64,000 bases of DNA from Haloglomus salinum (GTDB lineage: Archaea > Halobacteriota > Halobacteria > Halobacteriales > Haloarculaceae): assembly GCF_024298825.1 (NCBI RefSeq), contig NZ_CP101153.1:1550001-1614000 (forward strand), written 5' to 3'. Of this stretch, positions 43,569-60,434 are shown one piece after another; position 1 is the stretch's first letter; each line of letters begins with the position of its first letter. The notes below the pieces were generated by a model, which worked only from the letters and a program-made list of their open reading frames with translations, had not been told where the DNA came from and ran no database searches. The position numbers were made by a program, and so were the translations under genes.

Positions 43569-43583
43569 GCGTCGGCACTGGAG

Positions 43584-44327: not shown

Positions 44328-44344
44328 AGCTCCGTCGACCAAGC

Positions 44345-44770: not shown

Positions 44771-45144
44771 CTGCCGGCCGGCGTGGGGCTGTATTCGCAG
44801 CTCTGGCGTCGTGGAGCGGGTTGGCTCCCCCCTGTGGCTCGCGATCGTTCGTCAGGCTGGCGCGTTTGTGAGTGGTTTGGGTGGGTCGTCGACGGCCCGT
44901 CACGCTCGCCACATGCGGGCGGGCGCGGCACTCGTCACCGACCGTTCCGGGCTGCCTGCCTGCGGTAGCGGGCGGGCTGCCGGGCATCCGGTTTGACGCC
45001 AGCGGGTAAGCGAGCCGGTCCTGCGCTGCAGTGGCTGCTCGGACTGCCCTCGCTCGCGGTGCTCGCTCGGCGGCACGCTTACTCCGCTGGACGTTTGCGC
45101 CTGCCCGGTTGGCGCGCGTGACTGGTTGGGTGCCCGAGCAGACC

Positions 45145-45197
45145 GCGCTCTCGCTCGCGCCCCCTACGGGGGCGCTCGGAGGCGCGAGCGAGAGCGC
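45145..45197. repeat. Perfect 17-bp-arm inverted repeat
   Basis: GCGCTCTCGCTCGCGCC (45145-45161) pairs exactly with 45181-45197. The 19-nt loop itself contains a CCCC-TAC-GGGG mini-stem. It lies 88 bp before the OB-fold gene start. Confidence 0.8.
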
Positions 45198-45226
45198 TGG
45201 TGCTGGTTCGGTCGGTCGTGAAAGGT

Positions 45227-45248
45227 GCCCCGTGCTGGAACACGGGGC
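45227..45248. promoter_or_regulatory. Perfect 8-bp hairpin in the OB-fold gene leader
   Basis: GCCCCGTG and CACGGGGC flank a CTGGAA loop. It ends 37 nt before the ATG at 45286, in the same position relative to its gene as the GGTTTGTGG-type hairpins, but without that opening motif. No T-tract follows, so a terminator is less likely than a leader or operator. Confidence 0.5.
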
Positions 45249-45285
45249 GTCGGACGCTCTGGTGAGCGCCTGCAGAGTGACTGCA

Positions 45286-46143
45286 ATGTCGAGTAACAAC
45301 ATAATCGGTGAAAAGGTTTCAGTCGAGTCGGCGGACGAACAGGTTGCGGTCGAGGCAGAGGAGCCGGAGCTGCGGCCGACGGTGGAGCTGCGGTCGCAGG
45401 CGAAGATCGATTCGGAGACGATCGCGAAGGTCGACGGGACGGCCGAGCGTGAGCACCCGTACGGGATGACGCTCGTTGCAGAGGAGAAGTGGGAGGCGCG
45501 TGAGCAGGAGAAGGCCCGGACGCGGGCGCGGACGAGTGGTCCCGTGAACGAGCGGCGCGAGGCGGAAGCGCGGGTGACGGCGGCACACGGCAGTCGGCGC
45601 AAGCGTGAGGCGTTCGCCCGGCGACGAGCGGGCGTGGACCCGTTGGCCGGGCCGGACAGCGTGGATCCCCGAGAGAAAATGGATGCGGCGACGTTGGCGG
45701 AGGTCAATCAGCAGGCCCAGCGCATTCGGGAGACGGTTCGCGAATGCGGCAGTCGGGCTAGCATCAGCCGACAGTTGGCCGAACGGGTCGCTCGGGGGCA
45801 GGGTGTCACCGAGGCGACGCTGGACGTGCTGGACGCGGAACGCCGGCGTCCTGGGACGGTCGTGCCCATCGGAGAGCTGGAAGACGTGCCTCGAAAGGAG
45901 GTGGCAGTCTCGGGTGAGTGGATTGAATCCTGGGACGCCGATTCATCCAAGATTCAGCAAGTCGGGTTGTTGGAAGACCAGACAGGTCGAACGAAGGTGA
46001 CGGTCTGGCAGAAGAGCCGTCAGCCGTTGATCGAAGAGGGCGAACGCGTGCGGATTCGGGCGGCCGCGACGAGCTGGTACCAGGGGCGGGTGTCGCTCGC
46101 GGTGACGGGCGATACGCGCATCATCTTCACTGACCGGGTGTAG
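45286..46143 (+). CDS. OB-fold nucleic-acid-binding protein
   Basis: A 285-residue protein. The first about 110 residues are charged, low in structure, with basic patches (GSRRKREAFARRRAG). The middle is helical (AATLAEVNQQAQRIRETV). Residues about 195-285 form an OB fold of the RPA type: VPRKEVAVSGEWIESW, QVGLLEDQTGRTKVTVWQ, GERVRIRAAATSWYQGRVSLAV. It probably binds single-stranded DNA during replication or transfer of the island. Strong hairpins lie just upstream. It resembles DNA-binding proteins I recall from haloarchaeal plasmids. Confidence 0.7.
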   Translation: MSSNNIIGEKVSVESADEQVAVEAEEPELRPTVELRSQAKIDSETIAKVDGTAEREHPYGMTLVAEEKWEAREQEKARTRARTSGPVNERREAEARVTAAHGSRRKREAFARRRAGVDPLAGPDSVDPREKMDAATLAEVNQQAQRIRETVRECGSRASISRQLAERVARGQGVTEATLDVLDAERRRPGTVVPIGELEDVPRKEVAVSGEWIESWDADSSKIQQVGLLEDQTGRTKVTVWQKSRQPLIEEGERVRIRAAATSWYQGRVSLAVTGDTRIIFTDRV

Positions 46144-46582
46144 TGGGGCTGCCCCGCTCTTTCTTTCGTGATGGCCACCACCCGCCAGCCGCCTCCCCAC
46201 CCACCGCTCCGTGCTCGCTCGCTGCGCTCGCTGTGCGCGCAGCCACGACCTCTGGGTGGAGTTTTGGAATCCATCGGAGCGGGTGTCGGTTGTCGGGTGC
46301 TCAGCACCGTTGGGGGTCCGACTGCGCGTGTCAGCTCGGAGCGGGCTCTCCCTGTATCCTCGCCGCCCGGGGACGCTCGGTCTCGGCCTGGCACGGTGTC
46401 GTCCGTGCCTCGGCATCGTGCTCCTCGCCACCTTCGACCGGCTCCATTTCCGTCCATCCGCTTCGCGTCGGGCCGGGATGAAACACGTCGGTTGCGACGA
46501 CGGACCCGGGTTGCGAGTCCTCACCCGGGTTGCGTCGACGGACGCGAGCGGTATCATCCCGGCCCGACGCGGCGGGTCGCGC
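46144..46582. other. Non-coding region with direct repeat copy R1
   Basis: This region of 439 bp holds R1 (46173-46251) and otherwise no convincing coding sequence. Just before the next gene, a small CCCG...CGGG hairpin (about 46562-46577) ends a few bases ahead of the ATG at 46583, again a hairpin-before-ATG arrangement. Confidence 0.45.
46173..46251. repeat. Direct repeat R1 (79 bp)
   Basis: It runs from GGCCACCACCCGCCAGCCGC to GCGCGCAGCCACGACCT and matches R2 at 46809-46889 at about 90% with small indels. The two copies flank the zinc-ribbon gene at 46583. Confidence 0.8.
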
Positions 46583-46756
46583 ATGGACGGAAATTGTCCT
46601 GTCTGCGGTGGCGAGATGCGCGCGATCGACCTCGGCGCTTCGGACGCGTACGAGTGCCAGACCTGCGGCGTCGAGCGTCCCGGAGAGGAACTGAGCTACG
46701 AGGGCGAGTGGTTCCCGCTCCACAACGAGATGCTCGACGCGGACCCCCGGCGGTAG
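46583..46756 (+). CDS. Small zinc-ribbon protein
   Basis: A 57-residue protein with two CxxC knuckles (NCPVCGGE and YECQTCGVE) that form one zinc ribbon, followed by a short acidic tail. Such single-ribbon micro-proteins are frequent in haloarchaea and some affect adhesion or stress behaviour, but the role of this one is unknown. It is flanked on both sides by the R1/R2 direct repeats, as if carried as a cassette. Confidence 0.65.
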   Translation: MDGNCPVCGGEMRAIDLGASDAYECQTCGVERPGEELSYEGEWFPLHNEMLDADPRR

Positions 46757-47075
46757 GGGCGGTCCCGTCGTTCTGGTGTGTCGTGTGCTGGAGGACTGGC
46801 TCGTAGTGGGCCACCACCCGCCAGCCGCCACCCCCACCCTCCGCTCCGTGCTCGCTCACATGCGTTCGCTGTGCGCGCAGCCACGACCTGAAGGTGCACC
46901 ACTAATCAGTTCGTATTAGTGCTCCCTGGCGTGCTGATCAGGGGTCGGATGTTCGGTAATACGGGGATTGCTCCGAGTCAGACAGAATGACAATCGTTTC
47001 ACCCGTTTCTTCAAAAAGAGGATACTATTCAATATGTTACCAATTAACAAGCATTGCGATTCTTAAACAAAGAGC
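46757..47075. other. Non-coding region with direct repeat copy R2
   Basis: R2 fills 46809-46889. From about 46900 the sequence turns AT-rich (TTCAAAAAGAGGATACTATTC near 47015), probably containing the promoter of the split zinc-ribbon gene that follows. No gene is seen. Confidence 0.45.
46809..46889. repeat. Direct repeat R2 (81 bp)
   Basis: This is the second copy of R1 in the same orientation, 636 bp further on. The central part differs by a few substitutions; both ends are identical. Confidence 0.8.
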
Positions 47076-47297
47076 ATGGCAGACCTCAGCAACCGCATGA
47101 AGCATACCGTCGATAGTTCGGATTCTGCACGAGAATACTGTCACTCCTGCGAATAGATGACCTCGCATACGATTAGTCTTGAACTCCAAGTGGAGAATCC
47201 AGAGGCCGAATACGCCGAGTTCTCTCGAGAACCCTATCGAATCACAACCTGCCGCAGCTGTGGAGATAACACGTCCAAGCGTATGAATGACCAGTAA
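47076..47297 (+). pseudogene. DUF7835-like zinc beta-ribbon protein interrupted by an in-frame TAG
   Basis: The frame gives MADLSNRMKHTVDSSDSARE-YCHSCE, then TAG at 47154-47156, then immediately ATG and SHTISLELQVENPEAEYAEF...TCRSCGDNTSKRMNDQ to a TAA at 47295. Joined, this is a 73-codon zinc beta-ribbon with one CxxC on each side of the stop and the EFSREPYRITTC motif that I recall as DUF7835. Each half alone has only one CxxC, so neither can build the ribbon. A point change (for example AAG or CAG to TAG) is the simplest cause. Reinitiation at the adjacent ATG could still make the second half. Confidence 0.65.
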
Positions 47298-47514
47298 GAT
47301 ATCCCACTGTACTTAGCGATTCCTCGCCAGTGGCTTCAGCGGTGATGACGTGACCGAGACGCGCTCTGCATCGTTCGATGGCTGGTGCGTATTTCCCGCC
47401 GTTCTTCCTCGGGAATCAGCTCGGCGATCGGTTCCGTCTGCCTGTGTGGTGGGCGTTGCTAATGTTGCTGCACCATAGCGGCGCTTGCGTCATCGGCTGA
47501 GCCCTTGGCCGGGT

Positions 47515-47658
47515 TTAGTCGTGAGCGACAGTTGTGTTTCGCAATGGGCCACCACAGTCGGGGCACGCGTCGTCCTGGTCTGGGTTTTCGACACCTTTGC
47601 CGCACTCTTGACACACGTACAACGTTGACTCGCCGGGAGTCGGATTAGATTTAGACAT
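47515..47658 (-). CDS. Rubrerythrin-like zinc-ribbon protein (DUF7129-like)
   Basis: A 47-residue protein with YVCQECGKGV and ACPDCGGPLRN, the two knuckles of a rubredoxin/rubrerythrin-like zinc ribbon. I recall this as DUF7129, which haloarchaeal annotation calls rubrerythrin-like. It lacks the diiron domain of true rubrerythrin. AT-rich sequence immediately upstream (ATAATCAATCATTATG read on the + strand) supports a promoter there. The gene is too short for most gene finders. The 217 bp before its stop (47298-47514) hold no recognised feature. Confidence 0.65.
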   Translation of the reverse strand: MSKSNPTPGESTLYVCQECGKGVENPDQDDACPDCGGPLRNTTVAHD

Positions 47659-48238
47659 AATCAATCATTATGTTTGTGGAGGTATAAGTTACGGGGTCTC
47701 ATTATCGCGGTGCAGTAGCAACTGAGCCCGCTTCCACACGGAGTTGGGCAAGGCGGTCGCTACCCACACTGAATCTAATGATTGGAGTAACATCGTTCCG
47801 GCCACTTTCGGTGATCGACTCGCGCTCCGTATGCAGCACGACTCAACAAACTATCATCGGCTGAGGATTTCAACAGAGCCCGCTCCGATTATATCGGTTC
47901 TCAGAAGCCCAGTAGACCGCTGCCCATCGAATCATCGATGTTGCCCAGTGCCGTGCTGGCCGCATCCCGACCGAACTGAACGTAGCCCTCGCTTGCGACC
48001 GAGGATTCACAGCCCAGAACGGTACATCCTTCGGGGGCTTCCGGCCCCAGGCCGAGGGCCGCGGCTGGCCTCGAGCGTGAGGAGTCCGAACGCGCTTGAA
48101 CTGCACCGTATAGTACTATTCCACAGTTCGCTGGTACTCGTTGTCCGGACGTGGCGGAACGGCTGCCATGGCCCCTCGTCCATCTCCGGCCCCCGTGGAT
48201 ACCTTCTTGATAGACTCCGACCAAGCGCGGGGCAACAC
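47659..48238. other. Geneless region before the MBL lipoprotein
   Basis: The frame of the next gene stays open back to 47744, but the sequence there lacks acidic bias and protein-like pattern, so it is treated as non-coding. A GC-rich cluster of short inverted repeats (GGGGGCTTCCGGCCCC and neighbours, about 48030-48075) is present. No gene is recognised. Confidence 0.45.
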
Positions 48239-49663
48239 GTGGCCAACTCCTCCCGAACACTCCTCATCATCTGTGCTGGGCTTGTCATCCTGGCTGGCTG
48301 TAGCGCTCCCACTGCCCCGGCCAGCGATGGGGGCGAGAGTCCGCAGCCGGCGAGCGGTGACGCGACCGTCGAGGGAACGACTGAGGTTCACTTCATCAAT
48401 GTCGGGCAGTCAGTTGCAACGCTCATCATCGGGCCGACGGGTGAGACGATGCTCATCGACAGCGGCCATTTCAACGACGACGGTGAGTACGTGCTGCAGT
48501 ATCTCCAGCAGCAGAACATCGACCGGATCGACTACTTCGTCACGAGCCACAACGACGCCGACCACATCGGTGGGAACGCAGCCGTCATCAACTACTTCGA
48601 GACGGAAGCGGACGGCATCGGCGCCGTCTACGACCCCGGTATCGCCGCCGGGACCGAGACCTACAGCGAATACCTCGATGCGATCGAACAACACGAGGTC
48701 ACCCTGTACGAGACCCGCGAGGGGGATAGCATCCCGTTCGAGAACGTGAGCGTGCAGGTCATGGGGCCGCCGGACCCGTATCTCGAGAGCGAGGCCCGCA
48801 ACGAGAACAGTATCGTGCTCAAGCTCACCTACGGCCAGACGAGCTTCCTGTTCACCGGCGATGCCGAAGACGACCAGGAGGCGTATCTCGTCGAGGAGTA
48901 CGGTTCACAGCTCCGGGCCACCGTGATGAAGGCCGGACACCACGGGAGCAAGACCTCGACGAGCGGAGCACTACTGGACGCAGCACAGCCGCAGGCGGTC
49001 ATCATCTCGAGTGAATTCGACTCGCGGTACGACCACCCGAACGAGGCGACGCTGCAGCGACTCGCCGAGCGCGACATTGCTACCTACTGGACGGCCACAC
49101 AGGGACACGTCGTTCTCACGAGCGATGGTGCCCAGGTGACGGTCGCTACCCAACGGTCCGCCCCGACCGAGCCGATGCGGCTCCGCGACGGGTCGCCGGT
49201 CGAACTCGGCACGACGACAGACGCCGAGCGGCGAGCCACAATCACGGGTACCGGCGTGACGGACGCCACTAGCACGGCGACACCGGTCGCGACCGACGGC
49301 GGAACTGACAGTGGGGCCGGGTCTGGAGAAGGCACGCTCGCGCTCAAGTCGGTCAACGCTGACGCCGAGGGAAGCGACCGTGACAATCTCAATGACGAGT
49401 TCATCGTCCTCGAGAACACTGGCGATGGGTCGCTCGATCTCTCGAGGTGGACCGTGAGCGACGAAGCCGGGGCCACGTACACGATTCCTGACGGCACCAC
49501 GCTTGCGGCCGGCGCCACACTCACGATTCACTCCGGAAGCGGCACCGATACCGAGGCTGATCTCTACTGGGGGTCCAGCAGTCCCATCTGGAACAACGCC
49601 GGCGATACAGTCATCGTGTCGGACGAGAATGATGCAACTGTCCTTCGAGAGGCCTACGAATGA
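48239..49663 (+). CDS. ComEC/Rec2-like metallo-beta-lactamase lipoprotein with lamin-tail domain
   Basis: A 474-residue extracellular protein. The GTG start gives a signal peptide with lipobox LVILAGC (Cys21). Residues about 45-310 form an MBL domain of the ComEC-hydrolase branch: HNDADH (104-109), FTGDAEDD, GHHGSKTS. A Thr/Ala/Gly-rich linker leads to a C-terminal lamin-tail-like beta sandwich (about 365-474, DEFIVLENTGDGSLDLSRW). In bacteria this kind of MBL domain is linked to DNA uptake or extracellular nuclease action. The next gene overlaps by 4 bp and encodes a DUF3006 protein, a usual companion. Confidence 0.8.
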   Translation: MANSSRTLLIICAGLVILAGCSAPTAPASDGGESPQPASGDATVEGTTEVHFINVGQSVATLIIGPTGETMLIDSGHFNDDGEYVLQYLQQQNIDRIDYFVTSHNDADHIGGNAAVINYFETEADGIGAVYDPGIAAGTETYSEYLDAIEQHEVTLYETREGDSIPFENVSVQVMGPPDPYLESEARNENSIVLKLTYGQTSFLFTGDAEDDQEAYLVEEYGSQLRATVMKAGHHGSKTSTSGALLDAAQPQAVIISSEFDSRYDHPNEATLQRLAERDIATYWTATQGHVVLTSDGAQVTVATQRSAPTEPMRLRDGSPVELGTTTDAERRATITGTGVTDATSTATPVATDGGTDSGAGSGEGTLALKSVNADAEGSDRDNLNDEFIVLENTGDGSLDLSRWTVSDEAGATYTIPDGTTLAAGATLTIHSGSGTDTEADLYWGSSSPIWNNAGDTVIVSDENDATVLREAYE

Positions 49664-49941
49664 TTCCGAATGGTGCCTATACGGCCGTGTTGGACCGGTT
49701 CGAAGACAGCGACCCAGTGCTGGAGCTGACGGGCGAGAGCGGGCGCTACGAGCTGGTCGTCGAGCAACAGGCCCTCCCACAGCCTGCCCGACATACTGAT
49801 GCCGTGCTGGAAATCGAACTGGTTGACGAGGCGATTGTGGCTGCGGACTACAAACCTGCAGAGTCGAAGCAGCGGATTAGCGACGCACAGAATCGGTTCG
49901 ACCGGCTGTCGAAGCGGCCGCCGAGTGACGACGAATCCTGA
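49660..49941 (+). CDS. DUF3006-like protein
   Basis: A 93-residue protein matching the DUF3006 pattern, a small beta-rich domain with TAVLDRFEDSDPVLEL near the start and a C-terminal helix (AESKQRISDAQNRFDRLSKR). DUF3006 genes typically follow ComEC-like MBL genes, as here, where ATGA overlaps the stop of the lipoprotein gene. It has no signal peptide. Function is unknown; the coupling suggests a regulatory or dosage partner. Confidence 0.75.
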   Translation: MIPNGAYTAVLDRFEDSDPVLELTGESGRYELVVEQQALPQPARHTDAVLEIELVDEAIVAADYKPAESKQRISDAQNRFDRLSKRPPSDDES

Positions 49942-50076
49942 GACTCTCGGTATTCAGGGCGGCGCGAGTCCGGCCCGTGCGACTCTCGTCTCCAGTCGAA
50001 CCTCTTGGTCCCGATTGCGGGTTCCCAGACAGTATGGCGGGATAAATTGAGGTGGTTGGATTCCAATCGCTCGGTA

Positions 50077-50244
50077 ATGGTCGAATGTAGTAACTGTGGT
50101 GACGAACTGGAATGGGGTTGGACAGGACTGTGCTTAGAATGTCGAGAACGTTCTTGCAAGCCTTGTTGGGAGGCGATGCCGCTGGAAGACGGGTTAGCTG
50201 GTGGTCACGCATGTCCTGTTTGTAATGCTGGTCTCACGGAGTAG
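50077..50244 (+). CDS. Small double-knuckle zinc protein
   Basis: A 55-residue protein with four CxxC pairs (CSNCGDE, CLECRER, CKPCWEA, CPVCNAG), enough for two zinc sites, perhaps a treble-clef or RING-like arrangement. It may be a protein-protein adaptor. The ATG at 50077 is the first in the dense Cys frame. No family recognised. It is separate from the DUF3006 gene by 135 bp. Confidence 0.5.
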   Translation: MVECSNCGDELEWGWTGLCLECRERSCKPCWEAMPLEDGLAGGHACPVCNAGLTE

Positions 50245-50811
50245 GCGCTATTGGACGCCGTTCTCGAGTAGGAGCTTCGTAGAATCGGAGCTCTGAGGTG
50301 GAGTGAAGCAAGCCCGGTTTCCGATTCCCGATTCAACTGCTTTCAAAAGAGTCGACTTCTGGATAGTACTCGGCCGCCAGTATTCAACAGAACCAGCCAA
50401 CAATCGCTGTGCCCACAGTATACGATTGTCCTTGACGTGTGGGTATTTCCGGCACTGGCTCACTGTCGGCTCGTTGGGTCGTTTCTGAATCTCTCGCAGC
50501 TTGCACTCATTCGAGTATACTGTCCCCTCTGGGTATAAAAGTGGCCGCGAGGATTCGCAGACTCCCCCACCTCTTGCCCCACTGAATCTGCCACCGCACC
50601 TCGGAGTAAACGCCTGTCTCGGATGGCACGGAATGGTATTCTGGTTCAGAATGGATATGCGCCCATCCTATCTCTATTCGCAACTTTGGTATTGTCCGAA
50701 AGCGCCCGGAAAATACTGCCGTTAATTTCGATAGTTGAATTTATGTACAAAGGCGGTTCCGGATTGGATGTCGCCTTCCGATAGTGTCGTAGCCAATCTC
50801 GCACGCACATC
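50245..50811. other. Geneless region before the conjugation cluster
   Basis: This stretch of 567 bp has lower GC and no convincing gene. Short frames exist on both strands (for example 50248-50463, minus), but none shows domains or haloarchaeal acidic bias. Its right end (about 50715-50745, AATTTCGATAGTTGAATTTATG) is AT-rich and probably holds the promoter of the VirB4 cluster. Confidence 0.45.
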
Positions 50812-51255
50812 ATGATACATCGATTCCAATCGCTGATGGCCTCCGCTCTGGAACGACGTCGTCTCCGTCTCGCTGCCCGAACCGCCGTGTTGGTCCTCCT
50901 GCTCGTCGGGTTGATCGCATCGGCTGCGGTGCCGGCTGCAGCCCAAGACAACTCCGGGAGTTCGGCGACGAACCCGATCTGCCAGGATAGCTCCAATACG
51001 TTGCCCGACATGATCGAGGGGTTCGTTCAGATAACAACCGCTCTCGGGTTGATGGGGCTGCTCGTCGTCTGGCAGGCGGATTCGCTGATGGAGATGTTCA
51101 CACTCAGCCGCGAGCAGAAAGCCAACATCAAACAGCACAAACGCGGTGCAATGCGGTCTGCCGTTGTGCTAGTGGTTCTCGGGCCGGTGTTCACTGTTGC
51201 TGGGTCGACGATGGGGCTACCTATCGCCCAGTGTGTGGACCTAATCCCGTTCTGA
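50812..51255 (+). CDS. Small membrane protein, first gene of the VirB4 cluster
   Basis: A 147-residue protein with a basic N-terminus and hydrophobic signal (about residues 23-46, ending VPAAAQD), then membrane segments at about 65-85 and 112-135. Size and topology are like a VirB2/pilin-type or accessory T4SS subunit, but no sequence link to VirB2 can be claimed. It has a pair of Cys in the presumed exterior part. It leads the tight run of genes up to VirB4, so a role in the conjugation apparatus is likely. Confidence 0.55.
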   Translation: MIHRFQSLMASALERRRLRLAARTAVLVLLLVGLIASAAVPAAAQDNSGSSATNPICQDSSNTLPDMIEGFVQITTALGLMGLLVVWQADSLMEMFTLSREQKANIKQHKRGAMRSAVVLVVLGPVFTVAGSTMGLPIAQCVDLIPF

Positions 51256-51265
51256 CTCCTCACAG

Positions 51266-53080
51266 ATGTCGGAACGCGGATTCACCCTACTACTCATCAT
51301 CAGCCTCCTCGCAGGCGGTGTCACCAGTGTCGCGTCTGCGACTCCCCCACGGCCTGGGACCGAGGGGAACGGACTTGACGAGAACGAGTCAGCGACCCTC
51401 TGGTCCCGTGACAACGACAGTCAGCGTATCACGAACGCCGAGTACCGGCGGGCCTACGGTGAGCAGCGGACGGCGATTCAGAGCGTGGCCAACGGGACGG
51501 ACCTGACGTTCCGGCGACCCCCGTCAACCGCTGGAATCTGGACGCGCCACGACTTCTCAGATTACGCGCCCGGAAACGCGAGTGTCTCGGTGTACCCAAC
51601 ATCGGCGAACCGAACGAATTCGACGCTGATTCGGGATGCGCATGCGACTGTGTTTGCCGCAACGCCGTCGACGGTGGCACACACGGGGCCAGGAGAGACG
51701 ACGCGATATCTGGCACCGGACGGGGAGCTGCGTGGCGCTGTCGACTACCGAGTCGCTGTTCCAGATGGCAACGTAACCACACGCCGCTCCACTGCTACGA
51801 ACGGATCGAACACGACCACCGGCCGTCGCACCCGCCGCGTATCGTGGTCGCTTACGAGCCATGAGATTAGCGCCATCCGGCTTCTCCAAGACGGTGAGGT
51901 TATCGCGCGGACGAACGGCTCTCATCGGCCTCGAATCGAGTACGCGCTCACAGGACAGGACGGAACGCTCAGGCTGGAAGCCGATATCGAGGTCAGCCTC
52001 ACACGTCGCGTCACCGTCACTCGCACGACGAATAGAACCACCCCGAACGGGACGGAGAACATCGTCCGCGAACGGACGACGACCAGCATCGTGACGGATT
52101 CGGTGACGGTAACCGACGAAATTCACGGCCACGTGTACGGCCTAGAACCGTCGCTCGAGTACGTGACGTATCCCGATGGCGACCTCGGTCTTGCTGTCTT
52201 CCAGGAGCTTCCCTGGCAGGGATACCGCCTGCGTACGAACGGCGGGGCACGGGTCCGTGGTGTTTGGCGATTCTACACCGCTCGTGATACTGGCTGGGAC
52301 ACGCTCGTCCGGAGCCGAGCAGGCGGTTCACGACGTACCGAATCCAATGCAGTTCCAGTGTCCGTCCACGCATACCCGTCTCGCATCGGCCCACGAATCG
52401 AACCGGAGGGTCGCGGCCCTGAGTTGCTAAACCGGTGGGGCGCACGGCGGGACTCGCCCGCTGGAACGCTCGGTCGGAACGTCCACGTTGAGGTAGTCGA
52501 TAGGTCGTACGAGGCGACGCACGGGCTGGCTGTTCGGTATCGTGCCAACGCTAGCACTCGGATTACGGTTCGTGGCATCGTTCGCGGTGAGAACCGGACA
52601 TTTCGCCCCGAAGCCGACGGCACGCGGCGGGTCCTCCGGCAGAGCAATCTCACCGTCGAGCGCATCTCCGAGTCGGAGTCACAGCTCACGGTCCGAATCA
52701 CCCTCCGCGATGCCGAGACTGGAGAGCCGATTTCGCTCTCGGCGCCGAATCGTCCCCGGTACGAACCGTTGCTAGTCGGTCGAGACGAGGCGTATATCTC
52801 GATTGGTGACCGGCGCGTCCAGACGAACCTCTCAGGGATGGCGACCGTCCGGCTCGATGAGAGCGGCGTCTACACGGTACGCTACCATCCGGAATCGTGG
52901 CTTACCCACGATCCGGCATACACCGGGGCGGCGACATCCGTTCGATGGCACCCCCTCGCGACGATAATGGGCTGGCTTGCTCTCGCGGTCCGAGTGGCAC
53001 AGTGGTTCCTGCCGTTCGCTCTTGCGCTGTATGCGGGGCGACGGCTGGGTGGGATGTTTCGGTATCGAGGTGACCTCTGA
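51266..53080 (+). CDS. Large secreted, C-terminally anchored protein of the conjugation cluster
   Basis: A 604-residue protein with a signal peptide (about residues 6-26), a long Thr/Arg/Asn-rich extracellular part with many potential N-glycosylation sites, and a C-terminal hydrophobic segment (about 565-590, GWLALAVRVAQWFLPFALAL) before a short basic tail. The beta-rich exterior suggests a surface structure. No family is recognised. It starts 10 bp after the preceding gene and its TGA overlaps the next ATG by one base, so it is firmly inside the operon. It may be an adhesin or mating-contact protein. Confidence 0.55.
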   Translation: MSERGFTLLLIISLLAGGVTSVASATPPRPGTEGNGLDENESATLWSRDNDSQRITNAEYRRAYGEQRTAIQSVANGTDLTFRRPPSTAGIWTRHDFSDYAPGNASVSVYPTSANRTNSTLIRDAHATVFAATPSTVAHTGPGETTRYLAPDGELRGAVDYRVAVPDGNVTTRRSTATNGSNTTTGRRTRRVSWSLTSHEISAIRLLQDGEVIARTNGSHRPRIEYALTGQDGTLRLEADIEVSLTRRVTVTRTTNRTTPNGTENIVRERTTTSIVTDSVTVTDEIHGHVYGLEPSLEYVTYPDGDLGLAVFQELPWQGYRLRTNGGARVRGVWRFYTARDTGWDTLVRSRAGGSRRTESNAVPVSVHAYPSRIGPRIEPEGRGPELLNRWGARRDSPAGTLGRNVHVEVVDRSYEATHGLAVRYRANASTRITVRGIVRGENRTFRPEADGTRRVLRQSNLTVERISESESQLTVRITLRDAETGEPISLSAPNRPRYEPLLVGRDEAYISIGDRRVQTNLSGMATVRLDESGVYTVRYHPESWLTHDPAYTGAATSVRWHPLATIMGWLALAVRVAQWFLPFALALYAGRRLGGMFRYRGDL

Positions 53081-53892
53081 TGGACTGGACTCGACGAACC
53101 CTGGTTGGAGGTATCGCATCCGCAACCGTACCGCTGGCTGGCTGTTCGCTCGATTCGCCATCCGACGACCCAACCGACAGTGGCGGCGGTGGCGATTTCG
53201 AACAGGTACAGGTAGACGGGCAGACACTCGTGGTTGGGCTCGGAGAACTCTCACCAAGCACAGTGAACGTTATCGCTCCCGATGGCACTGCGTTTGCGTC
53301 ACGGTCGGTCCCACAGGGAGCGACGACGGTCACGTTCGATATCGGACTCTCATACGCCCCGGGCGAGTATCGGGTCGTTGCGAGTACCGGAGAGTCGACG
53401 ATAGCGGAAACCACTCTCACGATTGCACCGGACCTCGAGATCCTGGAGGTCGGCGTCGGTGCAAATCATCTTGACCGGATGCCAACTGGCCTCGGTAATA
53501 CGAAATCTGCGGAGGCACTGGTTACCGTCATTAATCGCGGAAACGGTCCAGCTATCCTCGAAAAAATACTGTTCCTTGGTGGGGTACCAAATCCAACTAC
53601 TGACCTTCAAGATGCAGATGAAGAGGAGGCTAGTGGTATATTCATTAAAGCTGAGGGCGCCAGCGAGGTTACTCAGCTCGTAATTCTTGGAAATCAAAAA
53701 GACACCCTCTATACTAGCAGACTCCCGTTCAGCTTCCACGAAGATGGAGTGAGCTGTAGCAGTGACGAACAAACTGGGAAGTTCCGAGTAGTACTGTCTA
53801 CGAGGATTGAGGGTGCTTCTGCTACCGGTGAGTACTCTATTAGCTATACTCGGTCCAGTGAATCTGGTGAGTGTAACATCCGAATTAATTGA
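53080..53892 (+). CDS. Tat lipoprotein of the conjugation cluster
   Basis: A 270-residue lipoprotein. MDWTRRTLVGGIASATVPLAGC has a twin arginine and a lipobox, so it should be exported by Tat and lipid-anchored. After a Gly/Asp/Ser linker, residues about 40-120 look like an Ig-like or CARDB-type beta sandwich (QTLVVGLGELSPSTVNVIAPDG), and the rest is a second beta-rich domain. The second half is AT-richer than the first, hinting at a mosaic gene. It is translationally coupled to the preceding surface protein. Confidence 0.6.
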   Translation: MDWTRRTLVGGIASATVPLAGCSLDSPSDDPTDSGGGGDFEQVQVDGQTLVVGLGELSPSTVNVIAPDGTAFASRSVPQGATTVTFDIGLSYAPGEYRVVASTGESTIAETTLTIAPDLEILEVGVGANHLDRMPTGLGNTKSAEALVTVINRGNGPAILEKILFLGGVPNPTTDLQDADEEEASGIFIKAEGASEVTQLVILGNQKDTLYTSRLPFSFHEDGVSCSSDEQTGKFRVVLSTRIEGASATGEYSISYTRSSESGECNIRIN

Positions 53893-53900
53893 ACTCAACA

Positions 53901-55019
53901 ATGCCAGGGATTCCATTTGCTGATTTTGGGCTGAAGTGGTTTACCGACATCATTGAGAAGATCTCCGAATGGTTCGGAACTGAAATATCACAGAGTTATC
54001 GAAATCTCGCCAATGATTTCTTCGGCACTCCCCTCCCGAACGGTTCCGGGGCAGACCTGATTTTCAGCGCTCCTGCTCCGGATGACAAGCCGTGGTACGA
54101 TATCTACGAATCTGTCGTCGCCGGTGATATCATGATACTCGCTCTGGTCATTCTTTTCCTCGCCGTACAGGGCCGTCACTTCGTACGAATCTTCGACTTC
54201 AGTAGTCCGTATGAGGCCCGGAGAACCAGGCGGACAGCCTGGACCGGGGCTGTACTGATCGTCGCTTGGTACTGGGTCGCCGTGTTGTTGCTCTACTTCG
54301 TTGATGCATTCACGATTGCGCTGGTCCCGAGTCTCGGTGAACTCGGAGCGGCGATGGTCGATCTCATGCCCTCGGCTGTGAGCAATCCGGGACTCACTGC
54401 TATCATGGCATTCCTCGGGGCGCTATCGATGCTTGCGCTGAAGGCTCTCTTCTTCATCCGGGAGGTACTGCTCTACGTGTATCTCTACGCGATGCCACTT
54501 GGTATCGCGGTCGCCTTCGGGAACGTACCGGTCGTCTCTCATATCGCTCGCCGCCTCTGCCGGCAGTTCATCCCGCTGGCTGTACTGCCGTTGCCAGCGA
54601 CTCTCCTCTTCCGCGGTTACGGGCTGATTTTCGTCGGTAATAGTGTCGTAGCGCCGAAAAGCGAGTTTCTCCAGTATTTCGTCGTTATCTCACTCCCCAT
54701 CATCGCGCTGTTTGTCACCTGGAAAACGTTCCAGTACGCCAGTCCGCTGACTGCGACGGCACTTCGCCGTGGAACACAGGCTGCGGCAACGGCTGGCGCC
54801 GTCGCCGGTGTCGGATACGTCGGTGGTCAGCGAGCAGCGCTCACGACGGCTCGGTACGGCACGATGGCCGGCGCCATGCAGGTCGCGACAGGACAGGGAA
54901 GTCAGCAACAGTCCGGCTCGGATGGCACGAACAACAACAACGGCGGGAATAGCGGCGGCGGTGGCGGCGGTGGCGGCGGTGGCGTGCCCAACCATCGGCG
55001 GACCGGAAATAATCCGTAG
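53901..55019 (+). CDS. VirB6/TrbL-like polytopic membrane protein
   Basis: A 372-residue protein with about seven hydrophobic segments between residues 70 and 285 and a soluble C-terminus ending in an Asn/Gly-rich tail (GGNSGGGGGGGGGG). Topology, size and position next to VirB4 are those of VirB6/TrbL, the inner channel component of type IV secretion. Sequence similarity to bacterial VirB6 is not visible, so the call rests on context. The ATG at 53901 is used; a TTG at 53889 would overlap the upstream stop. An 8-bp gap leads to the next gene. Confidence 0.6.
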   Translation: MPGIPFADFGLKWFTDIIEKISEWFGTEISQSYRNLANDFFGTPLPNGSGADLIFSAPAPDDKPWYDIYESVVAGDIMILALVILFLAVQGRHFVRIFDFSSPYEARRTRRTAWTGAVLIVAWYWVAVLLLYFVDAFTIALVPSLGELGAAMVDLMPSAVSNPGLTAIMAFLGALSMLALKALFFIREVLLYVYLYAMPLGIAVAFGNVPVVSHIARRLCRQFIPLAVLPLPATLLFRGYGLIFVGNSVVAPKSEFLQYFVVISLPIIALFVTWKTFQYASPLTATALRRGTQAAATAGAVAGVGYVGGQRAALTTARYGTMAGAMQVATGQGSQQQSGSDGTNNNNGGNSGGGGGGGGGGVPNHRRTGNNP

Positions 55020-55027
55020 TACTGAGT

Positions 55028-56143
55028 ATGAGCTCTGACTCCACGCATTCAGCAGCGAAGCGTCGCATCATGAACCAGCTCGGCGAGGAGAATCGCGTTC
55101 CCATCCTCAACGTGTCGGAGGGAGATATCGGAGTGCTGTTCGGATTCCCGATTACTGGCCTGTTCGTCGCCAGTCTCCTCGGTGCCGATGTGTTGCTCCT
55201 CCCCCTCGTTCTGCTGGGGGTGACGCTCGGCACTGCTGTGGTCTATGCAGCACCGGCGCAGCTGACGGCCTGGCAGTGGCTTCGCGACGTATCCCGCTTC
55301 TATCTCAAGCGCCCGCGGGTTACCCACAGTCACGAGCCGGATAGCGACCACGCTCCTACTGAGGGCGGCGTCGTTCAGTATACGCCCTTCACCCCGGCTG
55401 AGCGGACCCAAGACCTCACGAACGTGCAGCGGGCGTGGCCCGGTGCGGGAGCGGTTCAACGCACCGATGGCCGGATGGAAGCGTTCGTCGAGATCGACCC
55501 GGCGAACATGGATTTCGCGATGGCCGGAGACTGGCAAGCTGTCCAAGAGGCCGGTGCCGAGTTCGCCAACTCGGAACTCGAATTCCCGCTCACGTTCCAT
55601 GCGACGACCCGCTCGTTCCCGGTTGGACAGCTCATCGAACAGCTTGACGACCGTCTGAGCGATGGTGATGTCCAAGACAACCCTGCGTTTCAGGAACTAC
55701 TGACCGAGTACCGTGACCGACGGCCGGCGGACCTCGCTGACACGCAGCGCCTCCACTACTACATCGGGGTTGAGGTCGGCCGGCTTGAGGTGTACAACCA
55801 CTACGAGCAGGAACAGACACCGGGAGAGAAACTCGCAGAAATCCCGCTCTTCGGCCTCTTGATCCAGCCGTTCGTGGCCCGGAAGCACGACCTCGATGAT
55901 GCGGAGGTGCAGGCGGCGATGTTCGAGAAGCTTGACGAGCGCATTCGCACGGTCCGGTCCGAGTTCGTCGAGAACGTCTCCGGCTGGTCGGCGACCCGAC
56001 TCAGCACGCTCGAACTGTTCCTGCTCAATATGGAATTCTGGAATGGAGAGGAGTACGATTCCGAGGTGCCCGCGAGTACAATCAGAACCGAGCCTGCTAT
56101 TCAGCGTGAACCGCGTGCCCCCCGAGGTGAGCCGGATGCATAA
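55028..56143 (+). CDS. Conjugation cluster protein with VirB3/PrgI-like N-terminus
   Basis: A 371-residue protein. An N-terminal cytoplasmic stretch (about 1-32) precedes two close membrane helices (about 36-55 and 58-78), as in VirB3/PrgI, and a soluble part of about 290 residues resembles the N-terminal domain of VirB4 (ERTQDLTNVQRAWPGAG, ETFVEIDPANMDFA-like segments, FPLTFHATTRSFPVGQLIEQLDDRL). It may combine VirB3-like and VirB4 N-domain roles, since the VirB4 gene that overlaps it by 8 bp carries its own short N-terminal part. The assignment is by pattern and context. Confidence 0.55.
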   Translation: MSSDSTHSAAKRRIMNQLGEENRVPILNVSEGDIGVLFGFPITGLFVASLLGADVLLLPLVLLGVTLGTAVVYAAPAQLTAWQWLRDVSRFYLKRPRVTHSHEPDSDHAPTEGGVVQYTPFTPAERTQDLTNVQRAWPGAGAVQRTDGRMEAFVEIDPANMDFAMAGDWQAVQEAGAEFANSELEFPLTFHATTRSFPVGQLIEQLDDRLSDGDVQDNPAFQELLTEYRDRRPADLADTQRLHYYIGVEVGRLEVYNHYEQEQTPGEKLAEIPLFGLLIQPFVARKHDLDDAEVQAAMFEKLDERIRTVRSEFVENVSGWSATRLSTLELFLLNMEFWNGEEYDSEVPASTIRTEPAIQREPRAPRGEPDA

Positions 56144-58280
56144 CCCCGGCTGGCTGCAGGCGGCTCTCCCTCGGAGTGTACAGAATACGCTTGAATCGCT
56201 CCCGCCCCTCATCTCACCGGCCGGCCTGCTGGTCTACGGCGTCGGGAGCATCCTCGCGCTCATCGTGGTCGCGAACATCGTGACCTGGTACCGTGAACGC
56301 CAGGCCGAGGACGTGGTGCTAGCAGAGTTACTCGACGAGGAGACACTGGATGCTGGTACCCACGAAGAGGCGTTATTCGACGATATCGCGGAGCGCCAGC
56401 AGTCGGCGATGGCTCCAGCAGCGATCGAGTGGGAAACCCGTGCCGCTCGCGTCGGCGAGAATTGGATGACGACCCTGTACGTCGCCGGGTATCCGGATTA
56501 CCCATCTGACGGCTATCTGAGTGGCTTGTTCGAGTTGACGAATGTCCGATTCGACTTGACGGCACACGTCGCGCCGAAGAACCAGTCGCGAGCACGGGAT
56601 ACACTCCAGCAGACAGCCGACGACATCCAAGCTGATGCGGACCTCGAACGAAGCGTCCGGGGTGCGTACCTGCAGGAACGGGCAAACGAGGCGACGGCGA
56701 CGTACAAGGCCGTCGAGAACGGACAGCGCGTGTTCGACCAAGGGATGTTCGTCACAGTCCGCGCGGAGACGAAAGACGAACTCCGCGAGTCCGTCCAGCA
56801 GGTTCGAGCGGCGTTGCGCGAGCAGCCAGCAGGACTGAATCCGAAGACCGCTATCTGTACGCAGGACCTCGCACTCCAGTCGGCGGCACCGGTTGGGCCG
56901 AACGTATTCGACCGCGATGCGATTGCCCTCGGCGGTGCGGTCGGTGCGCTACTGGCATCACCACACAATGCGACGATTCTCGAGGAAGGGGGCGTGGAGT
57001 TCGGCATTCACAAGGATACCCGGAGCCCCCTCGTACTCGACCCGTTCGCCCGCGAAGACGGCTACGCGATGTTCACCGTCGGCGATCCAGGAAGCGGGAA
57101 GTCGTTCGGCGCGAAACAGAACTTCATCCGGACGATCGAGCAGGACCCGGACTGCATCGGCGTTGTCCTCGAACCGCTCAACAACTGGAACGGTGTCATC
57201 GAGGCGCTCGGCGGCCAGCGTATCACCGTCGGCGGAACGATGGGTCTGAACCCGTTGGAGATCAAGCCGACGCCCGACCGGGTTCTCCAGAGTCGCGGCG
57301 AGGACGCGAGTCCGCTCAAGGAGCGTCGCGAGCGGGCGATTAGTTTCTTCACGAACTTCTTCGCGTTGCGCGACGTAACGCTCGGCGACCGGCGGACAAC
57401 GCTGGAACTGGCACTCGACGAGGCGTACGAGCGCAAGGGCATCACGGAGGATGTGAGCACCCACGACAACGAGAGCCCGACCGTCCGTGATATGCTGGAT
57501 ATTCTGGAGGAGATGAGCAACGCCCCCGAGTCGTTCGTCGTCCGGGCGGACGCCGAGGGGGAGAAACTCGCGGACGACGCGGTCTGGCTGCTGGACCAGC
57601 TTCGGCCGTTCACCGAAGGCGGCCAGTTCGAGAACCTGGGTCGGGCGAGTGAATTCGACATCCGCGACGAGAAGCTCATCTATCTCGATCTGGTCCAGCA
57701 GGGCGGCAATCTCGGCGGCCACACGAGCCTGCTCATGGAGCTGCTCATCTCGCTGGTCTACGAGCGGGCGAAGGAGACCGACAAGCGCGTCGTTTTCGTG
57801 GTGGACGAGGCGCGCTACCTGATGTCCGATGCGGCGACACTCTCGTATCTCGAGACCATCTTCCGCCATCACCGGCACCACGACCTCTCGATCCGGCTCA
57901 TCACACAGACCGTCGACGAGTTCTTCCAGTGGCCGGAAGCGGAGATGATCCTCGACCAGTGTGCGATCAAGCAGTTCCACAAGCTCGACGGGATGGACGA
58001 GGAGTGGGCTAACGAGTTCGGCCTGAACTACGCGCAGATGCGCTACGTGCAGGATGCGATTCCCGGAAATGAGCAGGAAGGCTACTCACAGGCACTCCTT
58101 GGCGTCGACGGTGAGTGGCGAGGGATGGAGATTCAGGCACTCCCAAAAGAGAAGCAGATCATCGACTTCGATCCGACGGCAGACGCCACCGAAGTGTCGG
58201 AGGTTGTCGAGACGGGTCGGGAGTCATCACAACCCAGCGATTCGATGGAGGATTTGCCGGTGCCCGACGGGGGTGAGTGA
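56136..58280 (+). CDS. VirB4-like conjugation ATPase
   Basis: A 714-residue ATPase that would energise assembly and DNA transfer. It has an N-terminal membrane helix (about 31-50), an N-domain, then the RecA-like ATPase with Walker A GDPGSGKS (316-323) and Walker B VVFVVDEARYL with Asp557 and Glu558, followed by the RLITQTVDEFFQWPEAEMILDQC motif characteristic of VirB4/TraC. The start ATG lies inside the preceding gene (8-bp overlap); a GTG three codons earlier is possible. It is the best-defined member of the cluster and, with the coupling ATPase at 29405, identifies the island as conjugative or derived from such an element. Confidence 0.85.
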   Translation: MHNPGWLQAALPRSVQNTLESLPPLISPAGLLVYGVGSILALIVVANIVTWYRERQAEDVVLAELLDEETLDAGTHEEALFDDIAERQQSAMAPAAIEWETRAARVGENWMTTLYVAGYPDYPSDGYLSGLFELTNVRFDLTAHVAPKNQSRARDTLQQTADDIQADADLERSVRGAYLQERANEATATYKAVENGQRVFDQGMFVTVRAETKDELRESVQQVRAALREQPAGLNPKTAICTQDLALQSAAPVGPNVFDRDAIALGGAVGALLASPHNATILEEGGVEFGIHKDTRSPLVLDPFAREDGYAMFTVGDPGSGKSFGAKQNFIRTIEQDPDCIGVVLEPLNNWNGVIEALGGQRITVGGTMGLNPLEIKPTPDRVLQSRGEDASPLKERRERAISFFTNFFALRDVTLGDRRTTLELALDEAYERKGITEDVSTHDNESPTVRDMLDILEEMSNAPESFVVRADAEGEKLADDAVWLLDQLRPFTEGGQFENLGRASEFDIRDEKLIYLDLVQQGGNLGGHTSLLMELLISLVYERAKETDKRVVFVVDEARYLMSDAATLSYLETIFRHHRHHDLSIRLITQTVDEFFQWPEAEMILDQCAIKQFHKLDGMDEEWANEFGLNYAQMRYVQDAIPGNEQEGYSQALLGVDGEWRGMEIQALPKEKQIIDFDPTADATEVSEVVETGRESSQPSDSMEDLPVPDGGE

Positions 58281-58321
58281 AGAAAACTTATTCACGAACC
58301 CAACTGGATGCAGGATGTCGG

Positions 58322-58807
58322 ATGGACTTCGAACCGGGGGACGATGTCGGCTATCAGAACGTCGCATATCTTCGGGAGAACGGCCCGGCTCCAGCGGCAG
58401 ATCTCCCAACGGAAGTCGCTACTCGCCACCGGGCCGTCGGCGTGTACTCGTTCACGATTCAGGGTGGGTCCGGTTCGGATGGCATCTCGCTTCCCGGGTC
58501 ACTCCGGAAGGTGTACTATCTCGATGAGCACTCCCCGTCGGACGTAATCACGGTCTTTCTCGAAACGAATGATGGACTCCTCGAGGAGGCAACCACGAAA
58601 GGACTGGTTCGTCGGTTTGGCGGCCACGGAGCGGAGTGGCGGGACGCGGCTCGGACGGTTTTGCGCGAGGAATTCGGCCTCCTAAGCAGTGATCCAACTC
58701 CAGAATCCCGTGGTGAACCGCAGAGGGTGAAATGCTGGCGCTGCGATGAGTACGTCGTCGATCTGGAGACCCATCTCGTTGCGGAGTGTCCGGAATCGGA
58801 CTCGTAG
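58322..58807 (+). CDS. Hypothetical protein with C-terminal zinc finger
   Basis: A 161-residue protein. The N-terminal part (VAYLRENGPAPAADLPTEVA) suggests a small helix-turn-helix, and the C-terminus has CWRCDEYVVDLETHLVAEC, a C2HC-type finger. A TATA-like ACTTATTC lies about 30 nt before the ATG at 58322, which favours this start over an in-frame GTG at 58277 overlapping the VirB4 stop. It may regulate the cluster. No family is recognised. Confidence 0.55.
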   Translation: MDFEPGDDVGYQNVAYLRENGPAPAADLPTEVATRHRAVGVYSFTIQGGSGSDGISLPGSLRKVYYLDEHSPSDVITVFLETNDGLLEEATTKGLVRRFGGHGAEWRDAARTVLREEFGLLSSDPTPESRGEPQRVKCWRCDEYVVDLETHLVAECPESDS

Positions 58808-58830
58808 TTCTCATCTTCGTCGTAACGCGG

Positions 58831-58859
58831 GGTTTGTGGTCGGCCCTGACGGGTGGACC
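58831..58859 (+). promoter_or_regulatory. Hairpin leader, copy E
   Basis: GGTTTGTGGTCGGCCC is followed by TGACGGGTGG and ACC. It ends one base before the ATG at 58861 and shares GGTTTGTGG and CCCTGACGGGTG with copies A and B. This supports 58861 as the start although the frame is open further upstream. Confidence 0.6.
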
Positions 58860-58860
58860 G

Positions 58861-60102
58861 ATGACACAACCCATCCAGTCGTCGTCGACTCGTGGCAAGC
58901 CCCTCGATGAGGAACGTGGCGGCTTCGTCCCAGATACTGAGATTATGAGCGAGCACGGTGCCGTCGAGATTACCGATCTAGAACCTGGTAACCGGATTTA
59001 CGCTCTCGATCCGCTCACTGGAATCGCGAAGCTCAAGCCGGTTACCCATATCAGCTCACGGCAGTACCACGGACGAGTGTACGACATCAGTGCGAGACGC
59101 ATTGCTCTTCGGGTGGCTCCGGGGCATCCGATCCTGTACGAAACCCAGTCGAAGTGCCCGCCACGGTTCAGGCCGGCGAACCAACTCTCCGAGTATGAGG
59201 AAAATATTCTCATCAACGACTGGGAGACGGTGCCCCGGAAGGCACCGGACGAGATCGATGTCACCGATTTCCTTGACGAGTTCGAAGTGTGCGTCAGCTA
59301 CGATTGTCACGGACACACGTTTCGGGCGGCGCTTCCGGACGGATGCGAGCCGATTGGTCGGAATCAATGGGTCGGGTACCGGTTCGATGCTGCCACATTC
59401 AAGCGATATCAGGCTGCCATCGAGGAACTCGGGACGGGTGTCTGGATTCGAGACGGAACATCACATTGGCGCATGCCGTATCGGTTTCAACTCGAGGACT
59501 TCGTCCAGTTTATCGGTTGGTACGTGACTGAAGGGAGCGTTACTTGGAAGAAGAACCGAGACACTGCCGAAATACAGATCGCACAAAAGAAGGCTGAAAA
59601 CCGCGAGAAAATCGGTGCTCTACTGGACCGGATGGGCCTTGAGCATGATCGGCAGGAGAAATCGTTCAAGTTCGGCTCGAAGCTCTATGGCCGTCTGATG
59701 GAGGGTCTGGGCGGCACGGACTGTCGCGATAAGCACCTTCCCGATTTCGTTTGGGAGCTTCCGACAGAGCACCAGCAACTGCTGCTTCAGACGCTTTTAG
59801 ACGGTGATGGAAACGAGCGGCAAACGTACTACACGACGAGCGACAAGCTGGCTCGTGATGTCTGTCGGTTGTGCACAGAGTTAGGAATCAAGCCGCGCCA
59901 CGCCTGGCGGGAGCGATCCTGGGGAACTCCGATTTGGGAGATCTACATCAGCCGGACGCAAGACCAGTTGTTCTATTCCTCGCAGGTTTCGGAACTGCTC
60001 AGCTCGGGGCCAGTATTTCGACTTACTGTCCGTGACTACCCTGCAGTTCTCGCCGGACGCAATGGCCGATTCCAGTGGATCGGCGCTAACGCCGTTTCAT
60101 AA
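58861..60102 (+). CDS. Free-standing intein-like (Hint) LAGLIDADG homing endonuclease
   Basis: A 413-residue protein that looks like an intein without a host protein. Block A-like VPDTEIMSEHGAVEITDLEPG is near the start but has Phe where the splicing Cys/Ser should be (GGFVPDTE). Block B-like VAPGHPILYE contains His89. Two LAGLIDADG helices follow (IGWYVTEGS about 218-226 and LLDGDG about 313-318). The end reads FRLTVRDYPAVLAGRNGRFQWIGANAVS, like intein blocks F and G but without the terminal His-Asn. It is therefore probably a DNA-cutting enzyme that cannot splice. It sits at the right edge of the island, with a hairpin leader. Confidence 0.75.
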   Translation: MTQPIQSSSTRGKPLDEERGGFVPDTEIMSEHGAVEITDLEPGNRIYALDPLTGIAKLKPVTHISSRQYHGRVYDISARRIALRVAPGHPILYETQSKCPPRFRPANQLSEYEENILINDWETVPRKAPDEIDVTDFLDEFEVCVSYDCHGHTFRAALPDGCEPIGRNQWVGYRFDAATFKRYQAAIEELGTGVWIRDGTSHWRMPYRFQLEDFVQFIGWYVTEGSVTWKKNRDTAEIQIAQKKAENREKIGALLDRMGLEHDRQEKSFKFGSKLYGRLMEGLGGTDCRDKHLPDFVWELPTEHQQLLLQTLLDGDGNERQTYYTTSDKLARDVCRLCTELGIKPRHAWRERSWGTPIWEIYISRTQDQLFYSSQVSELLSSGPVFRLTVRDYPAVLAGRNGRFQWIGANAVS

Positions 60103-60320
60103 CGATTTCACGCTACAACCGCTCGGCGGCGAACGCGTGGGCCGACACGAACTGTCCCGGCGGCCGTGGCCGCGCGTTCGGGTCCTGCCGCGGTGACCGT
60201 GGCGTCGTCGTGCAGGAGCGTGCCGGCGAGACGGTGGTCCTGGCGGCGGCGTTCGATGTGGACGTGACGACGCCGCGTGGACACCGCGACCTGACGCTGG
60301 TGGTACGGGTGGTGGGGTGA
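60103..60320 (+). pseudogene. C-terminal remnant of a pilus-operon (pilin-like DUF) protein
   Basis: A frame without an upstream start reads RYNRSAANAWADTNCPGGRG..., GVVVQERAGETVVLAAAFDVDV and ends TLVVRVVG at a TGA (60318-60320). The GC content and codon pattern are those of the host. Its Cys-Pro-Gly-Gly and AFDVDVTTPRG patterns resemble small pilin-associated proteins encoded behind T2SS F/TadC genes in haloarchaea, by recall only. Together with the truncated F protein at 22373 it suggests that the island sits in a deleted pilus operon. The 114 bp after it are non-coding. Confidence 0.45.
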
Positions 60321-60434
60321 GGGGCGACACGGCCGGCTGACTGACTATTCGTTCGGCAGCCTGCGGGCCTGTACGACACCCGAACGCCGGTCTGGTGGTT
60401 GGTTTGATAAGGGTAGAGTATCGACCTCCGGGGT

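Follow-up and report, generated by a model that had tools for sequence, protein, structure and literature searches.

The closest described counterparts of the gene studied here are the WHO elements and the HO gene of yeasts, which are stand-alone LAGLIDADG nucleases derived from inteins, without exteins or splicing; in WHO, a 3' fragment of the target host gene FBA1 adjoins the nuclease and degenerate copies occur, and the available part of the source further describes a zinc finger, clusters, an FBA1 gene that is kept working and movement of the element by itself (PMC7282813). Free-standing LAGLIDADG genes of another family by name (pfam03161) were described in the glycosylation islands of Haloferax, with gene conversion suggested as a means by which the island may spread; that report, in its accessible portion, makes no mention of a Hint part, of a fixed operon as target or of a conjugative element (PMC5867893). 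In phage HEG-islands, homing genes border exchanged blocks with cargo between them, and the accessible sections stress T5orf172/GIY-YIG and HNH nucleases and a cargo of phage genes (PMC10448857). The PolB inteins keep Cys1 and a C-terminal Gln-Ser and lie in frame in their host gene. That of Haloferax volcanii is reportedly a published haloarchaeal case. Integrative and conjugative elements (ICEs) are usually explained by tyrosine or serine integrases, and among the matches listed in the open-access literature no conjugative element using a homing nuclease for integration was found.

The DNA analyzed, referred to as the window, is a 64,000-nt stretch of contig NZ_CP101153.1 of Haloglomus salinum (genome G000; other G numbers denote genomes of relatives), whose position 1 is forward-strand position 1,550,001. 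Like WHO and HO, as far as the available text portrays them, the nuclease encoded in the window is a stand-alone, intein-derived protein without exteins, and a host-gene fragment lies beside it, here at 10 of 20 loci, with a pilus-like operon as the putative target. It differs from them in the lack of a zinc finger, in the host operon being broken and in the conjugative island of 37-80 kb behind the nuclease. With PolB inteins it shares the fold, block F (AGRNGKFQ-(W/F)VG) and both catalytic acids; with the Haloferax genes, as depicted in the portion of their account at hand, it shares the situation of a free-standing nuclease in a haloarchaeal island; and its island shares with ICEs the VirB4-, VirB6- and VirD4-like genes inserted in a chromosome.

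The nuclease gene and its relation to PolB inteins

Analysis of the nuclease gene revealed the following features:

58861..60102, + strand: splicing-dead free-standing intein-derived LAGLIDADG endonuclease of 413 aa, the final gene of the island
58921..58923, + strand: codon 21, coding for Gly in all 17 free-standing copies, where PolB inteins carry the nucleophile Cys
59491..59538, + strand: first LAGLIDADG helix, residues 211-226, with acid E224 (17 of 17)
59764..59814, + strand: second LAGLIDADG helix, residues 302-318, with acid D316 (17 of 17)

The open reading frame starts with ATG at 58861 and closes with a TAA stop ending at 60102, and an in-frame GTG at 58786, upstream of the ATG, is a possible alternative start. 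The conserved part begins at residue 20-21, and in the window copy approximately 20 variable residues precede the Hint part. Pfam searches identified LAGLIDADG_3 (E=2.8e-9) as the sole family above its cut-off, with Hint_2 (E=0.0032) below its own. The AlphaFold model, based on a 17-sequence alignment, had a mean pLDDT of 89.7, and its residues 21-409 aligned with whole intein endonucleases; the best match was PI-PkoII (2cw7; Z 25.8, rmsd 6.1 over 373 residues), followed by VMA inteins, PI-PfuI and PI-SceI, the structural alignment scores (VIA-align) being a re-examination of the Foldseek matches only. Reading frame, Pfam matches and structural comparison confirm the free-standing intein-like nuclease, with Hint part and two LAGLIDADG helices, that an earlier note on this DNA had described.

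Searches of 146 genomes of the family detected a full-length free-standing copy in 8, that of the window included, and in an order sample of 392 genomes (E 1e-60) a full-length copy was present in 14, 9 of them new, giving 17 full-length copies (the window's and 16 others); the carrier cut-offs, E 1e-5 in the family and E 1e-60 in the order sample, miss weaker or decayed copies. Together with the nuclease of G088, which is split in two pieces ~257 kb apart, and with G116 and G065, which hold remnants only, these form the 20 loci compared. The G088 halves (G088:C1:329591-330067 and 587169-587927) are on the same strand, as if rearranged within the gene. In G116 only the last 20 nuclease residues are left, adjoining DUF7261, and the nuclease site (L147, G116:C1:1660000-1679999; oriented 51400-53530) is occupied by TnpA-like and TnpB-like genes, so named from a reading of their translations. 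Rough gene calls by composition score missed several nuclease genes in the stretches of relatives. A wider scan of genome contigs revealed three distant relatives of the nuclease, and none was found in viral contigs, plasmids or phages.

Intein blocks and the roles of their residues are referred to here in the customary way. In all 17 full-length free-standing copies the nucleophile Cys1 is changed to Gly, the Asn-His pair of block F and the C-terminal Gln are likewise replaced, and the protein stops 4 residues past the intein end; the block B His is retained in 12 of the 17, and the LAGLIDADG acids E224 and D316, at the helix ends, in every one. A stop codon stands at the intein end, and in-frame exteins on both sides were not found. 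The window copy ends in GANAVS where PolB inteins read VGQ/S, which, along with Gly at residue 21, bears out the earlier statement that exteins, N-terminal nucleophile and terminal Asn are lacking. Pfam scans, made on 9 of the 17 full-length copies, detected no zinc-finger family. The dN/dS values of the nuclease were 0.12, 0.08, 0.18, and 0.13 for four pairs, of which the second and fourth were close to saturation (dS above 2.5); a fifth pair was saturated. The loss of the splicing residues, the conservation of the acids and the dN/dS of 0.08-0.18 indicate that splicing is dead and that the nuclease copies, on sequence grounds, are under purifying selection.

A comparison with polymerase inteins, which the earlier note had proposed, separated the free-standing copies as one clade (support 100/100) from 15 related PolB inteins; within the nuclease tree the carriers of genus g3, G027 and G029, did not group together. 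Judged by sequence, the window nuclease is related to haloarchaeal PolB inteins: G000 itself has a PolB intein 33% identical to it, and the highest identity (40%) was found with the intein of a divergent PolB in G082. The latter gene (L047 (G082:C3), 8009-12442, minus strand) carries an intein that keeps Cys1 and VGQ/S and forms the first branch among the PolB inteins in the midpoint-rooted tree. The Cys found in 15 of 15 PolB inteins is partly forced, because for the residue comparison these were excised by a pattern that demands C...VGQS; two PolB inteins taken without that pattern also show Cys1. Severance of the intein from its host gene in this strain alone was rejected, since 16 full-length homologues end at the same place.

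The island and the operon that it interrupts

Comparison with the same-genus genomes G047 and G048, in which the operon is intact at the place of the island, delimited the island; its features and those of its junctions are as follows:

22373..22655, + strand: 3'-truncated chromosomal tadC of ~94 codons, forming the left junction (homology on this side extends to 22655)
22656..60110, no strand assigned: conjugative-type island, where G047 and G048 have 4.6-4.7 kb of pilus-like operon
23469..24863, + strand: NrS-1-like primase-polymerase near the left end (HBD domain, E=3.2e-31)
29405..32887, - strand: VirD4/TraG-like coupling protein, 1160 aa (TraG-D_C, TrwB and DUF87 matches, all below cut-offs)
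53889..55019, + strand: VirB6/TrbL_3 protein (E=1.9e-126)
55896..58280, + strand: VirB4-like conjugation ATPase (NF045971, E=6.5e-39, below cut-off; syntenic with G122)
58277..58807, + strand: small protein between VirB4 and the nuclease, with relatives in G333, G116 and G063
60103..60110, no strand assigned: right junction, 8 bases from the nuclease stop to chromosomal homology
60111..60321, + strand: 5'-truncated chromosomal DUF7261 pilin-like gene, from codon 116 of 184 (DUF7261 named on the intact G048 gene)

The island of the window, of 37.5 kb, replaces the middle of a TadA/TadC-DUF72xx operon. According to Pfam, the operon genes belong to T2SSE (in G119), T2SSF and, in G048, DUF7289, DUF7266, DUF7263, DUF7262, and DUF7261; the T2SSE and T2SSF genes are those that we take to be TadA and TadC, respectively. 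TadA directly precedes TadC in six reference genomes, which is not so in G047 and G048, and in G000 an intact TadA lies ~330 kb away. A search of G000 for the missing middle of the operon gave only a single match, of ~98 query bases, and a relocation of this part within the genome was therefore rejected. On the right side, homology to G047 restarts at 60111, 8 bases past the nuclease stop, which sharpens the right junction that the earlier note had placed at the nuclease gene.

VirB4 and VirD4 were assigned by similarity below family cut-offs, and with these assignments the island holds the conjugation genes of an ICE. The order primase-polymerase, VirD4 (reversed), ..., VirB4, nuclease is common to G000, G122, G233, and G220. 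No Pfam family matched the small protein at 58277-58807 at E 1 or better. Further genes in the island of the window are a homologue of the large subunit of exonuclease VII (41242-42714), with relatives in the G122, G029, G027, and G432 islands, and a protein of ComEC-like metallo-beta-lactamase fold with a C-terminal lamin-tail domain (47744-49663), with relatives in several islands. G000 also contains a second VirB4-like gene and VirB4-like pieces (G000:C1:245845-247767 and 253699-254609), with in-frame TGA codons in 2 of 3 of these extra matches.

The genome search for integrases covered the family PF00589 alone. It gave no match at E 0.001 within the window island (G000:C1:1572656-1610110), and for this family the earlier observation that no integrase is in sight holds inside the island; at the same threshold none was detected in the G220 island, nor in G432 from the last tadA piece to the nuclease. 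A PF00589 (integrase-like) stretch in a 137-aa frame was found in the G233 island, and in G122 a weak partial match lies at 3009622, ~24 kb ahead of the nuclease. At 35692-36411 the window shows a match of the IS240-type DDE kind that is below cut-off. The window contains no tRNA gene, and its island differs from ICEs with tyrosine integrases in the absence of PF00589 and of a tRNA gene, in ends that fall in protein genes and in break points that vary.

Junctions across relatives and the loss of TadC

The earlier note had named homologues always far from element ends as the finding that would speak against its proposal, and had suggested a search at island edges. Such a search did not show this pattern: the nuclease 3' end is ~65 bases or less from operon DNA in 10 of the 20 loci, i.e., 8 with full-length copies (G000, G122, G027, G029, G062, G307, G321, and G333) and 2 with remnants (G116 and G065). 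The right break falls at DUF7261 codon ~22 in G122, G321, and G333, at ~55 in G307, at 116 in G000, and at 134 in G062, while in G027 and G029 the last ~35 codons of the DUF7266 gene are followed by the next operon genes, with DUF7263, DUF7262, and DUF7261 retained; the adjoining pieces in G027, G029, and G065 were each read from a frame, and for G065 DUF7261 was not a search match. The closest pair consists of the carrier G062 and the same-genus G064, whose operon is intact: the two have right flanks with 95% identity across 3.2 kb, and the G062 junction shows the nuclease stop, 20 extra bases and DUF7261 codon 134.

A looser link to the operon was observed in five more loci, bringing the linked ones to 15 of 20. 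In G233 one gene (~1.25 kb) separates the nuclease from operon DNA (DUF7261 break at codon ~27); G223 and G094 have the nuclease in the opposite orientation, at a distance from DUF7261 of ~100 bases and ~1.5 kb, respectively; and G220 and G432 have tadC or tadA remnants on the other side, ~70 and 82 kb off. No operon DNA was seen beside the nuclease in the remaining 5 of 20 loci (G089, G114, G395, G400, and G088), the stretches searched in G395 and G400, like those of G122, G029, and G062, stopping short of the left ends of the islands; tadA fragments occur elsewhere in G089, G114, and G088, in the latter ~73 kb from the C-terminal nuclease half. In G333 a search reaching back to ~109 kb from the nuclease revealed no operon piece, and in G321 the contig end leaves ~12 kb on the relevant side.

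A border position arising by chance in one genome is rejected by the repeated operon junctions. A single constant integration site was also considered and not upheld, as the break points differ between loci; being non-identical, they do not follow the pattern of an att site, and they fit a break followed by variable repair and decay.

Loss of the operon TadC was a common trait of carriers. No intact operon TadC was found in any of the 18 carrier genomes (17 with full copies and G088), and the trait of WHO and HO that the host gene stays functional is thus not shared. Remnants of TadC occur among carriers in G000 and G220 only; the other matches in carriers are 23-33% identical and were taken, from their sequences, for paralogues. 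When presence was defined as a match at E 1e-120 or better and weaker matches were scored absent, TadC was present in 0 of 9 carriers of the family against 90 of 137 non-carriers (Fisher p=1.2e-4; 47 non-carriers were counted as lacking it), and in 0 of 9 carriers against 21 of 32 non-carriers among the 41 VirD4-type genomes (taken at E 1e-170 or better; p=4.8e-4), where the p-values serve as guides only because genomes within a genus are not independent, and some of the genomes counted are incomplete. In this scoring G009, G013, G104, and G133 passed as TadC-present with a match only from codon 123-193 on, genomes with split or partial tadC (G044, G102, G111, G127, and G125) counted as lacking it, and G116 and G065, with nuclease remnants, counted as non-carriers. 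The second comparison, made among VirD4-bearing genomes, indicates that TadC loss is associated with the nuclease rather than with the element as such. Within genus g3, 29 of the 30 non-carriers have TadC, only G033 (58% complete) giving no match, and both carriers lack it. This distribution, with g3 carriers that are not grouped, argues against one ancient insertion inherited by all.

Proposed entry of the island and competing explanations

These data point to a homing endonuclease, related to PolB inteins, that probably drives the conjugative island into the pilus operon. The nuclease would have lost protein splicing and would serve the island whose border its gene forms. Expressed alone, it would cut the intact TadA-TadC-DUF72xx operon of a recipient, and the break would be repaired from incoming donor DNA, with the 3' part of the operon after the nuclease on one side and the tadA/tadC side beyond the island as the other arm. 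The whole island of 37-80 kb would thus be copied in, with loss of the operon middle; the operon, and in time also the nuclease gene, would decay afterwards. We infer the cut and where it falls, the way of repair (by gene conversion or by microhomology joining) and a continued mobility of the island. More tentatively, the island might rely on a domesticated, splicing-dead intein where other elements use an integrase: the nuclease would open one conserved pilus operon in every new host, with the broken operon's 3' part acting as homology arm and the pilus being disabled on entry, a proposal that could well go either way. The idea of the earlier note that cleavage by the nuclease initiates the insertion or spread of the island agrees with the operon being joined in half of the loci, with no intact TadC of the operon being found in carriers and with the absence of PF00589 from the window island, and is only partly supported because cleavage is something that we infer, the break points differ, 5 of 20 loci show no operon DNA and nuclease-free relatives lie beside operon pieces.

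The nuclease could instead be a passenger at a hot spot, i.e., a selfish homing gene with its own site in the operon that moves only itself, next to which the conjugative element entered otherwise, by a lost integrase or by homologous recombination. This is rather unlikely, although several observations agree with it: the nuclease is absent from 32 of the 41 VirD4-bearing genomes of the family; it may occupy either end of the element module, and its orientation varies; the G307 copy sits in the operon together with a primase-polymerase gene, and no relative of VirD4, VirB4, or VirB6 was found in the 49 kb that precede it; and the G233 island contains the integrase-like frame. On the other hand, a VirD4 homologue was found in 10 of 10 other nuclease-bearing stretches compared, and a relative also in G223, G321, and G400 (broken in the latter) and beside the C-terminal half in G088, while none was seen in G307 or in G089 and G114, whose contigs end there. 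Identities of nuclease and VirD4 are, moreover, moderately correlated (Mantel r=0.49, p=0.004, 14 loci), with nearest neighbors agreeing in only 5 of the 14, and the lack of PF00589 in the window island also counts against a passenger.

It is improbable that selection against the pilus explains the association, in the sense that the operon is often lost (e.g., in escape from viruses) and islands accumulate in the dead locus, with the nuclease uninvolved. The 47 nuclease-free genomes counted without TadC would accord with such loss, as would operon pieces beside nuclease-free elements in three genomes. One is an element of G047 (G047:C1, ~2051382-2079774; L140, L141) located in another place, 75-95% identical in DNA to parts of 23.6-46.9 kb of the window, with two TadA C-terminal pieces on its left and neither conjugation operon nor nuclease found in it. 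In G066, a DUF7261 piece lies ~4.6 kb from the VirD4 gene, and in G076 (L159, G076:C1:776000-795999) VirD4 precedes a TadA scrap to which a truncated DUF7262 and a nearly complete DUF7261 are joined, no nuclease being found in that stretch. These three genomes may once have carried the nuclease, as seems to be the case for G116 and G065, or the nuclease may not be needed. Selection against the pilus leaves unexplained, however, the close approach of the nuclease 3' end to operon DNA at half of the loci and the selection on the nuclease itself. Very improbable is a role as a weapon, in which the nuclease would exclude rival elements or plasmids by cutting them. Such a role is described for free-standing nucleases of phages, and the available part of the Haloferax report considers that it may apply there (PMC5867893), but it would leave the repeated junction with a single chromosomal operon unexplained.

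If the reading of a nuclease that drives the island into the operon is true, a homing nuclease placing a whole conjugative island would represent a further route of integration and would account for islands without an integrase or a constant att site. The gene would be an archaeal counterpart of WHO, with a conjugation machine as its cargo, and another case of descent from an intein to a stand-alone homing gene. The operon is struck in several genera, and this reading gives a testable reason for the repeated breakage of the pilus-like operon in haloarchaea.
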